A stretch of DNA of 51,333 nucleotides, from the NCBI GenBank assembly GCA_030530525.1, contig JAUMUT010000015.1, forward strand, positions 1 through 51,333, read 5' to 3'. How positions within the stretch are numbered: position 1 is the stretch's first letter; each line of letters begins with the position of its first letter. The DNA comes from Capnocytophaga sp. GTDB lineage: Bacteria; Bacteroidota; Bacteroidia; Flavobacteriales; Flavobacteriaceae. The position numbers and the translations under genes were made by a program. Below the pieces are notes generated by a model that saw only the letters and a list, made by a program, of their open reading frames with translations, was not told where the DNA came from and searched no databases. Of this stretch, positions 1-29,008 are shown piece by piece.

Positions 1-218
1 ATACTTTTTCCTAATATCCTCCAAATATTTTTTTACTTTTTTTAAAACTTTTTTTAATTGATTTATTCTCAGTTGTTTATAAATGAAAATTTTTGTCGTT
101 TCCTGAAGTTTTTGTGCTTTTTCTATTCGTTTTCGCTCGTTTTTGCTCCCTAAAAAACTCTTTTTTGTCCCTAAGGCTTCTCTACCACTATACAAATCCC
201 TTCCAATTGCTCCGAATA
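1..218 (-). other. Possible partial or degenerate ORF at left edge
   Basis: On the minus strand the frame stays open from just after a TAA at 219-221 to the window edge (about 72 codons) and reads as a Lys/Arg-rich peptide containing LGTKKSFLGSKNERKRIEKA. A different minus frame just upstream reads RELGVRVLKMRGVFRKYSEQ and stops at about 170, so the two together could be a frameshifted remnant or part of an interspersed repeat. No ATG or ribosome-binding site was found for the open frame, and I do not recognise the family. In such AT-rich DNA it may equally be chance. Confidence 0.2.
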
Positions 219-16801: not shown

Positions 16802-17644
16802 TTATTGTAAAACGGAATTTACTCTTTCATTTACGATTTCTTGTAATTTATAAAAATCTATATTCCATTCTGATTTGAAATAATTTACCACAAAGGCTTC
16901 TTTTTTACGAATAGCCTCCTTAGCGGTTGTATTGGTGATGGCATTAATTTTGGCATCCCATTGGGCTTTTGTCATATCTAACATAGAAGAAGTCATTTCG
17001 GCGAAATCTTCAATATCGTCTTTCATAGAATAAGGCGTAATAAATCCTTTTGCCAAAGCATCTTTTTCAGGTACGTTATGCCAAGCCGCTGTATAGCCTT
17101 CTGGTGTTATTTTTCTATACTCGGTAGAATATGGTTTTTTTTGGTTAATGATGTGGCAATATTCGTGCTGAATGGTATGGAAAAACAATTTTGTTCTTTC
17201 GTGGTTGGCAACATCAAGATAATTTACTTCAAAGAGTGTTATTTTATTTCCGCTATCTGCAAAACCAAGAGTAACAGAGCCGTCTTCATTCACATTGTAC
17301 CCTCCTGCGATAGAAATTTGTCTTGGAGTAACTTTTTTCATAAATTCTTCTCCTGCAACGCTTACATAGGCATCTATCCATATTTTTTTAATTATTTCCA
17401 AAGCAGGTTGTATTTTGCTTTCCTGAGGCGGATAGAGGTATTTTTTCATTTCAAAATCAGCTTCTTGCCAATTATAGATTACCATAATATTATATGGTTT
17501 TTGAAAATTTTCATAAATATAATCATCAATTGCTGTTCTTGCTACTTTTCTTTCTTTAATTACACTTTCTTCGGATAATGTTTCTTTTTTATTGCAAGTA
17601 ATAAAAACAAATGCTGTTATTATTAAAATAAATATTTTTTTCAT
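16802..17644 (-). CDS. Substrate import-associated zinc metallohydrolase lipoprotein
   Basis: The 280-aa lipoprotein has lipobox FITC (Cys17). The zinc-protease motif HEYCH (His160, Glu161, His164) is followed by a candidate third ligand in DDIEDFAEM. This matches the lipoprotein metallohydrolase family that accompanies SusC/SusD pairs in Bacteroidota. It may cleave a peptide-containing substrate at the cell surface before import; this is inferred, since no substrate can be read from the sequence. It sits 21 nt downstream of susD and 12 nt upstream of the DUF4302 gene. Confidence 0.82.
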   Translation of the reverse strand: MKKIFILIITAFVFITCNKKETLSEESVIKERKVARTAIDDYIYENFQKPYNIMVIYNWQEADFEMKKYLYPPQESKIQPALEIIKKIWIDAYVSVAGEEFMKKVTPRQISIAGGYNVNEDGSVTLGFADSGNKITLFEVNYLDVANHERTKLFFHTIQHEYCHIINQKKPYSTEYRKITPEGYTAAWHNVPEKDALAKGFITPYSMKDDIEDFAEMTSSMLDMTKAQWDAKINAITNTTAKEAIRKKEAFVVNYFKSEWNIDFYKLQEIVNERVNSVLQ

Positions 17645-17665
17645 AAGTAAAAAAATTTGGTTATT

Positions 17666-19150
17666 CTATCTTGGATTTGGTGTCAGCCCATTAGCAATAG
17701 CATCTACTGGTATTTGCAATTCTCTTCGTGGGTCATCTTTTGGAAGTTCTAAGGTTTCGTCATCTTTAACGTGGGTTACTTTTATTCCCATTCGTTTTAT
17801 ATCAAACCATCTTAGTCCTTCTTGTACAAATTCTACTCTTCGCATTCCTATTACACATTCTACCCATTCTCTTTGTGTTTTGGATAAAGAATAAGCGGGG
17901 CTAAGTTCTGTACCTAAGCCATTGTATTGGTCATCAATATGGCTTTCTACAATATTACCATTAACGGTTGTGCTTGTTTTTGGTCGGAAATAAATATTTA
18001 AATCGGCAACAAATTTTGCTCTTTCTCCTTTCATAGCGTAGGCTTCCATACGGTTAAGAAGTACTTCATCATAAGAGAAAAGAGTAGCCATAACGTAGGC
18101 ATCTCCTATATTACTAGAAACGTTGTCATATTTAAAATATTCATTTACTTTTGGATAATTTCTATAATCTGTACCGCCAAAATATCTATACACCCAACGT
18201 ACTCTATACTTTTTAAGCGGGTGATGATTGCCATCTACCAAACTTTGTGATATTTCGTAAGTTAAACCATATTTATTATATAAAATATTTCTAGCATAAG
18301 CGGAATTTGCCCCCGCAATAAGAATATTAGCAGGTTCGTCAATGCTCGCATATTTATATTGAATTTCGTAATAGGTAAGAGCTAAATCAGCTTTTCTATT
18401 TCGTAATTTACCTACTATATTATCTCCTAAGGCTTCTGTTGAATGTTCAATTACTTTATCCCAATCTCCTTTCATTAAATAAAATCGGCTTGCGAAGGCG
18501 TGTGCTGCTTCTTTGGTAAAATGAAATTTTGGCTTGCTGTACTTGCTATTATCTATCAAAGGCAAACCTTCGGTAAGGTCTTTTTCTATGGCATCATAAA
18601 ATTTATCCAACGGAATACGTTCATATTTTTCAAAAACCTTTTTTTCGGGCTTGGTTACATAAGGTAGCCCCAAATCTGAGCTTGCTGTATCGCTATAAGG
18701 CTTACACCACAAAACTCCCAACATAAAATGTGCATAAGCACGTGCTACCAATGCTTCTCCTTTAAGGTAATTATATTTTTCTTCATTGGCAATTTGTTCA
18801 ATATATTCCAAAGCTTGGTTGGCGTTGGCAATAGCTTCATAAGCTCTTTTCCAATAAAAAGTTGGAGTATCGTGTTTGTCTATTTCGTTGTTCGTTCTCC
18901 ATAAATACATATCGGTATTAAGCTGTGAAGACTCCGAAACATTAGTTTTATCTCCTGCATTATCGCTCATTGTTTCGCAAATATCAATGTAAAGCGCATC
19001 AGGATATGCTCCTACGAGTAATTCTTGTATTTTTTCTGGTGTATCGATTTCTGTACGAGCATCTGGCAATTCATCTAAGAAAGAATTACACGAAGTTAAA
19101 AAAACACTTAACCAAATGGCTGTCAGTCTTTTATATATTGTACTTTTCAT
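17666..19150 (-). CDS. RagB/SusD family nutrient-uptake lipoprotein
   Basis: The 494-aa surface lipoprotein (signal with LTSC lipobox, Cys21, then NSFLDELPD) has the SusD-like architecture, including the N-terminal TPR-like helical region (AIANANQALEYIEQIANEEK, LVARAYAHFMLGVLWC) and the C-terminal MRRVEFVQEGLRWFDIKRMG motif. SusD-type proteins lid the SusC transporter and capture ligand. It begins 11 nt after the susC-like stop codon. The partner metallohydrolase suggests a proteinaceous rather than purely glycan ligand, but this is inference. Confidence 0.92.
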   Translation of the reverse strand: MKSTIYKRLTAIWLSVFLTSCNSFLDELPDARTEIDTPEKIQELLVGAYPDALYIDICETMSDNAGDKTNVSESSQLNTDMYLWRTNNEIDKHDTPTFYWKRAYEAIANANQALEYIEQIANEEKYNYLKGEALVARAYAHFMLGVLWCKPYSDTASSDLGLPYVTKPEKKVFEKYERIPLDKFYDAIEKDLTEGLPLIDNSKYSKPKFHFTKEAAHAFASRFYLMKGDWDKVIEHSTEALGDNIVGKLRNRKADLALTYYEIQYKYASIDEPANILIAGANSAYARNILYNKYGLTYEISQSLVDGNHHPLKKYRVRWVYRYFGGTDYRNYPKVNEYFKYDNVSSNIGDAYVMATLFSYDEVLLNRMEAYAMKGERAKFVADLNIYFRPKTSTTVNGNIVESHIDDQYNGLGTELSPAYSLSKTQREWVECVIGMRRVEFVQEGLRWFDIKRMGIKVTHVKDDETLELPKDDPRRELQIPVDAIANGLTPNPR

Positions 19151-28270: not shown

Positions 28271-28300
28271 CAAAAGTAGCAAATATTTTTTTATCTACAA
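28271..28300 (-). promoter_or_regulatory. recN promoter (TTG-N19-TACTTTTG)
   Basis: Minus strand TTG at 28300-28298, 19-nt spacer, TACTTTTG at 28278-28271, with a leader of about 15-20 nt. No separate damage-response operator was recognised. Confidence 0.75.
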
Positions 28301-28334: not shown

Positions 28335-28357
28335 AAAGTCCTCTAAATGAGGACTTT
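28335..28357 (-). terminator. Terminator of the small lipoprotein gene
   Basis: 9-bp stem AAAGTCCTC / GAGGACTTT with a 5-nt loop and a following T run on the minus strand, 16 nt after the stop codon at 28373. Confidence 0.85.
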
Positions 28358-28372
28358 GAGTGTATTGTAATT

Positions 28373-28849
28373 TTATGGTTTCTTTGTAAAAATATCTTCT
28401 ACATAATAATTGTTAAATTCATTAACAACGTGGAGTTTTCCTTCTATTACTGTGTATCTTATATATCTATCGGTGTAGTCTTTTGCATCTGGCCTTTTGT
28501 AAGTAACCATATAAACATTTTCATTATTTAGCTCTTGAACAACAAAATTACTTATATTTTTCACTTCCCGAACTACTTTATAATTATTAGTTTTTTCTAT
28601 TTTATCATAGTCCAAACAATAGAAAACAGTAGTAGGATTGGAAATGGTAATATCCGTAATTGTTGAGTTGGTAGTATCCAAAAGTGTGCTATCACTTTTT
28701 ATAACAGAACTTTCATACACCCAATCGCCAAGTATAGAGCTAATAGGCTGTAATTGCTTAGGCATATTGGCATTGTGTTCAATTTTTTCTTCTTTATCGC
28801 AAGCGAAAAGAAAAAGGGAGCTAAACGCTAACATAAGAATTTTTTTCAT
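28373..28849 (-). CDS. Small hypothetical lipoprotein, possibly lipocalin-like
   Basis: The 158-aa predicted lipoprotein has signal MKKILMLAFSSLFLFAC (lipobox LFAC, Cys17), a spacer, then a mostly beta-strand region beginning ISSILGDWVYESSVIKSDST and ending YYVEDIFTKKP. The pattern recalls lipocalin-like domains, but I cannot name a family. I chose the ATG at 28849 because it starts the signal peptide and lies downstream of the promoter; the longer frame (from 28909) would read through the promoter and A tract. It is monocistronic. Its promoter contains a 17-base A tract in the spacer, so expression may be phase-variable. Confidence 0.8.
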   Translation of the reverse strand: MKKILMLAFSSLFLFACDKEEKIEHNANMPKQLQPISSILGDWVYESSVIKSDSTLLDTTNSTITDITISNPTTVFYCLDYDKIEKTNNYKVVREVKNISNFVVQELNNENVYMVTYKRPDAKDYTDRYIRYTVIEGKLHVVNEFNNYYVEDIFTKKP

Positions 28850-28875
28850 TTTATGTGTCTTTTTTAATTTTGGTG

Positions 28876-28909
28876 CAAAATTATAATCTTTTTTTTTTTT
28901 TTTTTGCAA
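28876..28909 (-). promoter_or_regulatory. Promoter with a 17-base A tract in the spacer (candidate phase-variable switch)
   Basis: The minus strand reads TTG (28909-28907), then c, A17 and gatta (23 nt in all), then TAATTTTG (28883-28876), 26 nt before the lipoprotein ATG. The homopolymer is T17 on the plus strand at 28889-28905. TTG and TAnnTTTG match the Bacteroidota consensus, but the 23-nt spacer is at the long end. Loss of a few A residues would give the preferred 19-20 nt, so slipped-strand replication could tune promoter strength. Confidence 0.7.
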
Positions 28910-28936
28910 TAATTTAACACATATTTAACTACTAAA

Positions 28937-28963
28937 AAAGCCTTACAAATAATGTAAGGCTTT
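28937..28963 (-). terminator. Terminator of the YebC-family gene
   Basis: 11-bp perfect stem AAAGCCTTACA / TGTAAGGCTTT with a 5-nt loop, T run on the minus strand, 45 nt after the stop codon. Confidence 0.88.
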
Positions 28964-29008
28964 TGGGTGTATTAAAAAACAAATTCAAAATGAATTTTCC
29001 TTATTCTT

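Follow-up and report, generated by a model that had tools for sequence, protein, structure and literature searches.

A 17-adenine tract in the promoter spacer of a Capnocytophaga lipoprotein gene as a candidate simple-sequence contingency locus

Upstream of a predicted lipoprotein gene of Capnocytophaga sp. (GCA_030530525.1), 17 consecutive adenines lie between what appear to be the two core elements of a promoter. Might the length of this tract set the activity of the promoter, as an earlier note on this DNA had proposed, or is the tract a long form of something ordinary in this genome? We approached the question in the window (the whole 51,333-nt stretch that was analysed, contig JAUMUT010000015.1), in the rest of the genome and in the genomes of relatives. 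On re-reading, the coordinates claimed for the TTG, the tract, the box, the 26-nt interval and the ATG were exact:

28907..28909, minus strand: candidate −33 element TTG, 23 nt 5′ of the −7 box
28889..28905, minus strand: A17 run within the spacer of the promoter, its nearest A 6 nt 5′ of the −7 box
28876..28883, minus strand: TAATTTTG, the −7 box for the primary sigma factor of Bacteroidota (consensus TAnnTTTG; PMC9723704, PMC6847099)
28871, minus strand: inferred transcription start, about 4-5 nt past the box, with a 5′ leader of about 22 nt

The full minus-strand order is TTG (28909-28907), a single C (28906), A17 (28905-28889), GATTA (28888-28884) and TAATTTTG (28883-28876), with the lipoprotein ATG at 28849, 26 nt 3′ of the box. 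Read in this way, the spacer from TTG to box is 23 nt long and holds A17 between both putative core elements. We place the start at 28871 because the box-to-start distance in F. johnsoniae promoters is 4-5 nt (PMC6847099). A17 is indeed the longest homopolymer in the window, the next longest being 9 (two such runs).

The gene and its surroundings were annotated as follows:

29728-29009, minus strand: yebC-like gene, upstream of the lipoprotein promoter
28936..28964, minus strand: intrinsic-terminator-like hairpin after the yebC-like gene (12-bp stem, T run; −15.7 kcal/mol, z −5.4)
28373..28849, minus strand: 158-aa lipoprotein gene (begun at an upstream TTG in the ORF list)
28335..28357, minus strand: intrinsic-terminator-like hairpin after the lipoprotein gene (−12.2 kcal/mol, z −5.0)
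28271..28300, minus strand: recN promoter TTG-N19-TACTTTTG, TTG at 28300, a normally spaced neighbour for comparison

After the second hairpin, the minus strand continues with the recN promoter and then recN itself. The names yebC and recN are our presumption from the sequences; a recN query returned at least 586 relatives, in keeping with a conserved gene. The hairpin at 28936..28964 would insulate the lipoprotein promoter from yebC-like transcription, and the lipoprotein gene looks like its own transcription unit, dependent on the A17 promoter. As read from the sequence, its product begins with the lipoprotein signal peptide MKKILMLAFSSLFLFA-C17, whose end reads ...FLFAC17 (C17 being the lipobox cysteine) and which is followed by DKEEK. 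The latter fits the surface-export motif C-X-K-(D/E)2-X carried by surface lipoproteins of C. canimorsus (PMC5080379), and if this organism uses the same signal the 158-aa protein is likely to be surface-exposed. The predicted signal peptide, lipobox and C-X-K-(D/E)2 motif agree with the earlier description of a surface-type lipoprotein. No family could be assigned above cut-off from Pfam, NCBIfam or PDB, which gave weak sub-cut-off rows alone. Among 59 other genomes there were three weak partial matches and nothing better, and a named collection, from which records very near this genome may be absent, held no relative. Within the genus, 3 of the 19 other genomes have a weak partial match, and a yebC-like gene is present in 20 of 20; because none of the three matches lies near yebC by coordinates, there is no orthologous promoter to compare.

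The ordinary promoter of this genome was characterized from 160 putative promoters, defined as boxes at most 130 nt from an ORF start and outside coding sequence. TTG is found 19 nt from the box in 18 of them and at 20 nt in 16, compared with a mean of 2.3 over the other 18 spacings examined, and this peak bears out statistically the 19-20-nt optimum that the earlier note had proposed. Four promoters had been named there as examples (susC, ompA, recN and murB); recN, the sole one examined, has the 19-nt spacing. A TTG at 23 nt occurs in 3 of the 160, the A17 promoter included. Because TTG stands at 19 or 20 nt in 34 of the 160, the match at 28907..28909 is weak by itself.

In these promoters, 46-64% of the bases at positions −5 to −10 relative to the box are adenine; the longest run is 8 in 20 of the 160 and longer in 4, among them A17, a tract on contig C26 and one at asnS. 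In a sample of 451 kb made up of the window and 20 stretches of contigs C26, C45 and C48, the pattern TAHHTTTG follows noncoding A/T runs more often as they lengthen (23 of 1353 A4 runs, 16 of 101 A8 runs and 11 of 101 T8 runs), compared with 9 of 1353, 0 of 101 and 0 of 101 for a reversed-pattern control; noncoding runs of 9 and 10 are few in the sample, and 2 of 28 such oriented runs have TAHHTTTG. The sample holds 3 of the genome's 7 long tracts and is enriched for them because its contigs were chosen from earlier hits; its counts at 12 and above were not used as a rate. Since A is enriched at −5 to −10 and the box is commoner after longer runs, tracts of up to about 8 A directly 5′ of the box belong to the normal promoter here. 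A17 begins at the position of such a tract and extends beyond it, hence the TTG at 23 nt; removal of 3-4 A would bring the spacing to 20 or 19 nt, the promoter optimum.

In length, A17 lies well beyond the normal run. A count over the whole genome (2.29 Mb, 76 contigs) gave 38 A/T runs of at least 10: 27 of 10, 4 of 11, 3 of 12 and one each of 13, 14, 16 and 17, so that A17 is the longest and one of seven of at least 12. Extrapolating the decay from 10 to 11 (our own arithmetic), about 0.7 runs of at least 12 would be expected where 7 are seen, and fewer than 0.001 of at least 16 where 2 are seen. TAnnTTTG adjoins 6 of the 7 runs of at least 12 but 4 of the 31 runs of 10-11 (p=0.0005), where "adjoins" means that the motif starts from 2 nt before to 12 nt after the end of the run, on either strand. 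With the gap narrowed to −1..5, the counts are 5 of 7 and 4 of 31 (p=0.004).

Across the genus, 13 of 20 genomes contain A/T runs of at least 12, 47 in all, and an exact box at a gap of −1 to 9 accompanies only 12 of them. The six of these that are at least 13 long all precede genes for lipoproteins or secreted proteins, and none of the six that are exactly 12 long has an exported-protein gene directly behind the box:

Own genome, window, minus strand: A17 with box, 158-aa lipoprotein
Own genome, contig C16: T16 with box, secreted protein with YD/RHS-type repeats
Own genome, contig C26: T14 with box, lipocalin-like lipoprotein (PF13648)
Own genome, contig C73: A13 with box, secreted protein
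Relative G019: T16 with box, lipoprotein
Relative G006, contig end: T21 with box, lipoprotein
12-mers with exact box: valS (two genomes, its identity checked in one of them), asnS, sufS, a tRNA cluster and an unnamed-type ORF 324 nt away

The divergent neighbour at valS is an exported-protein gene. The T12 adjoining the valS −7 box is common to two related species (L144 in G013 and L148 in G001), which implies that a 12-mer can be stable before an essential gene. A forward search of the 20 genomes for runs of at least 12 A or T followed by the box found 4 cases for A and 9 for T (overlapping matches included), and the backward search gave 0.

The bias towards exported proteins also appears when the box is left aside. 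Counting tracts with a gene start within 250 nt (from totals of 26 tracts of at least 13 and 21 of exactly 12), we found an exported neighbour for 15 of 22 tracts of at least 13, as against 241 of 631 control runs of 6-9 (p=0.007, with the controls drawn from the own-genome sample alone, the long tracts from 13 genomes, and the 12/13 split chosen after seeing the data); for tracts of exactly 12 the count was 5 of 14. The export rule used here was strict and misses some cases, such as L185 and L187, whose N-termini look exported. A lenient rule, by which 20 of the 22 tracts of at least 13 had an exported neighbour, was dropped: it counted the background differently (77 of 237 genes) and produced visible false positives.

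Several further tracts and families may be recorded here. A13 or T15 runs lie 32-94 nt upstream of genes for large secreted proteins (L145 and L156 in G007; L184 and L187 in G016) that, from their N-termini, we take to be like SusC/TonB-dependent receptors. At L142 (G010) and L146 (G018), A13 lies at most 16 nt before the start codon of outer-membrane-barrel-like genes, where the run, if at or just past the transcription start, might work through reiterative transcription. A T12 on contig C31 of the own genome (L140, G000:C31), 17 nt from the contig end, lies upstream of a gene for what is presumably a PAPS-reductase/DndC-type protein. The YD/RHS-repeat-like secreted family behind the T16 promoter (L133:1563-2429) is expanded in the genus, with 19 matches in G013 and 18 in G004.

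Spacing in the tract promoters departs from the genomic norm. The TTG-to-box distance is 23 nt for A17, 19 for T14 on C26, 21 for A13 on C73 and 23 for T16 in G019; for the T16 promoter on C16, the 40 nt upstream contain no TTG except one formed at the box edge, and the G006 T21 promoter runs off its contig, which makes its spacing unreadable. By hand count, a TTG at 21-23 nt is present in 3 of the 5 readable promoters with tracts of at least 13, as against 5 of 158 others (p=0.0008). These enlarged distances, the peak at 19-20 nt and the placement of tracts beside boxes together support the proposal of the earlier note that tract length would set promoter spacing.

G019 contains a second tract, T14, which precedes TACTTTGC and has a TTG 22 nt upstream; TACTTTGC fits the variant box TAnnTTGY described for F. 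psychrophilum (PMC9723704). Each of the two tracts stands before an operon; the operons are unlinked, and their leading genes encode paralogous lipoproteins with 31% identity along almost their entire length:

L296:11848-12639: G019 lipoprotein-operon locus behind the T16 poly-T promoter
L297:11516-12307: G019 lipoprotein-operon locus behind the T14 poly-T promoter

In the 52 kb around both tracts, no further ORF of at least 80 aa has a run of at least 9 within 90 nt upstream. The T14 operon includes an additional 40%-identical paralogue in tandem, and close to it two adjoining lipoprotein genes (L297:15654-17219 and 17427-18728) share an identical N-terminus, likely the result of a recent tandem duplication.

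Given its anatomy, its outlier length, the preference for 19-20 nt and the repeated placement of such tracts before envelope genes, we think it slightly more probable than otherwise that A17 is a simple-sequence contingency locus in the promoter spacer of a free-standing, probably surface-exposed lipoprotein gene, the tract being an enlarged version of the A-rich stretch usual 5-10 nt upstream of the −7 box. The position of the gene between two strong terminator-like hairpins and its surface-export motif also favour this reading. Slipped-strand mispairing at replication would add or remove A's in the tract, and each change would alter the distance between the TTG (−33) and TAATTTTG (−7): the state as assembled, with a spacer of 23 nt, would be weak or off, and A13-A14, with a spacer of 19-20 nt, would form a strong promoter. 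In this way expression of a surface protein would vary reversibly and heritably, either by degrees or as on/off. We infer that the tract slips in growing cells, that its length sets expression and that selection acts on it. Against a switch, the TTG is a weakly conserved element and one 23 nt away may be there by chance. The window also contains a mutS gene in which all five MutS domains of Pfam are present, and working mismatch repair would hold slippage down. The length of 17 is known from one assembly of the species. Moreover, tracts near boxes also arise without switching, since the boxes of valS, asnS and sufS adjoin 12-mers where switching would be harmful; with such 12-mers present and A/T runs by the −7 box ordinary, the length of a tract is by itself no proof of a switch.

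Those same 12-mers speak for a static promoter element, that is, an unusually long A/T-rich stretch that would aid RNA polymerase near −18/−28 and whose length would drift with little regulatory meaning. The rise of TAHHTTTG with run length and the A enrichment at −5 to −10 would follow from it, and in F. johnsoniae the AT-rich motifs at −18 and −28 are stronger than the −33 element (PMC6847099). We nevertheless consider it unlikely, given that the normal A tract ends at about 8 and that such an element predicts neither the exported-gene bias at 13 and above nor the shift of the TTG to 21-23 nt. Tract length might instead act through A-tract curvature or the helical phasing of upstream contacts and not through −33/−7 spacing, much as T- and A-tracts beside the −35 element act as rheostats in H. 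pylori (PMC4081817). The weak conservation of −33 and the T16 promoter on C16, which lacks a TTG other than that at the box edge, suit such an effect of DNA shape; A17 lies between the two core elements, however, and the spacing preference is clear, which makes this explanation rather improbable.

That A17 is a neutral microsatellite or an assembly error (a hypermutable intergenic run, miscounted or expanded by chance) we regard as quite improbable. Assemblers do seem to struggle at such tracts, as T21 and an A30 in G006 lie at contig ends and the C31 tract of the own genome lies 17 nt from one; yet A17 is internal to its 51-kb contig, the 401 bases around it match the genome over their full length only at themselves (with three short partial matches elsewhere), and chance does not explain the placement. 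Hardly credible, in our view, is some other role for the tract, either as the T run of a plus-strand terminator or as part of a longer frame entering the lipoprotein from the TTG at 28909. The plus strand does carry T17 and the frame is open from that TTG through the A's, but plus-strand RNA folds little better than shuffles (z −0.84; 40 of 200 as good), and the longer frame would place the signal peptide 20 residues in and would need transcription from upstream of the promoter box, past a strong terminator-like hairpin. We rejected both roles on these grounds. A shared upstream motif was also rejected: a 34-base match of 91% to the promoter region, found elsewhere in the genome, has no TAnnTTTG in the 100 nt downstream, and by eye it resembles an open frame that lacks an ATG start. 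TGTTAA occurs in 16 of 175 upstream stretches; the corresponding value of 26 for shuffles is inflated by the counting of overlapping 7-mers, and the comparison is not very informative. TGTTAAA occurs in 12 of 175 stretches (100 nt) as against 4.9 in shuffles (80 nt), a mild excess, and is also found just upstream of the A17 promoter.

If contingency loci of this kind exist in the genus, how old are they? For the own-genome T16 gene, the box lies 39-66 nt before the start in 10 of the 13 relatives listed and at 90 nt in 1, and is absent in 2, these relatives including paralogues and having script-chosen start codons; in the same 13, runs in the 160 nt upstream reach at most 9. The T16 tract looks like a recent expansion, since 10 of the 13 keep the box and none has a run longer than 9. 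For the C73 A13 gene, the longest upstream run among the 11 relatives listed is 8, and the box is found in 3 of the 11. Among the matches listed, then, the T16 and A13 tracts do not appear to be common to relatives of their genes. A family-wide device was rejected for lack of enrichment over reversed patterns in 299 family genomes: T14 or longer at most 6 nt from a box gave 6 overlapping matches (4 places in 4 of the 299) and 5 when reversed, and A14 or longer with a box gave 2 places in 2 of the 299 and 1 in the reversed control. Of the 299, the own genome alone turned up in both searches.

The arrangement resembles several known systems. In the Mycoplasma hyorhinis vlp genes, a poly-A tract lies in the promoter region of surface lipoprotein genes (Citti and Wise 1995, cited in PMC10502178), just as A17 precedes a predicted one, and several vlp family genes each have their tract, to be compared with the two lipoprotein operons of G019. 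The phylum and sigma factor are different, and ON/OFF length changes are documented for vlp, whereas A17 comes from one assembly. The 158-aa lipoprotein is also unrelated to the own-genome lipoprotein behind T14, unlike a vlp-type paralogue family, although the G019 paralogues behind T16 and T14 do fit one. In Neisseria meningitidis porA, a homopolymer likewise lies in the core spacer, and its length sets transcription of an outer-membrane protein (PMC3899988); there it is poly-G in a −35/−10 promoter, and here poly-A or poly-T between TTG and TAnnTTTG. Helicobacter pylori sabA shares a long A/T tract near surface-protein promoters and varies by slipped-strand mispairing, but its T-tract lies beside −35 and acts via DNA shape (PMC4081817), whereas A17 is between both elements. 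The promoter poly-A of N. meningitidis nspA, where gain or loss of a single A alters how strongly an outer-membrane protein is expressed, is only 5-6 A long, and a heading of the paper states that there is no evidence for phase variation (PMC6389960). Going by that heading, length dependence alone is not switching.

Contingency loci in promoter spacers are a kind known elsewhere and apparently new for Bacteroidota-type promoters. Bacteroidota are best known for promoter inversion. In the titles and abstract openings of the literature on Capnocytophaga, Flavobacterium and Bacteroidota we found no such promoter-homopolymer switch, which does not establish its absence from print; a B. thetaiotaomicron transcriptome map contains both "phase variation" and "homopolymer" (PMC7366714). 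More tentatively than for A17 itself, we suggest that it is possible, if somewhat short of probable, that the genus carries dispersed poly-A/T promoter contingency loci which separately adjust the output of lipoproteins, TonB-receptor-like proteins and further secreted proteins by way of −33/−7 spacing, a form of slippage-based surface variation in which each species would evolve its own tracts out of the usual A-rich element of the spacer. If the tracts slip, surfaces would differ from cell to cell without an invertase or a regulator, and RNA-seq comparisons of strains could mistake differences in tract length for regulation. The poorly defined −33/−7 spacing rule of Bacteroidota could then be read from natural length variants.
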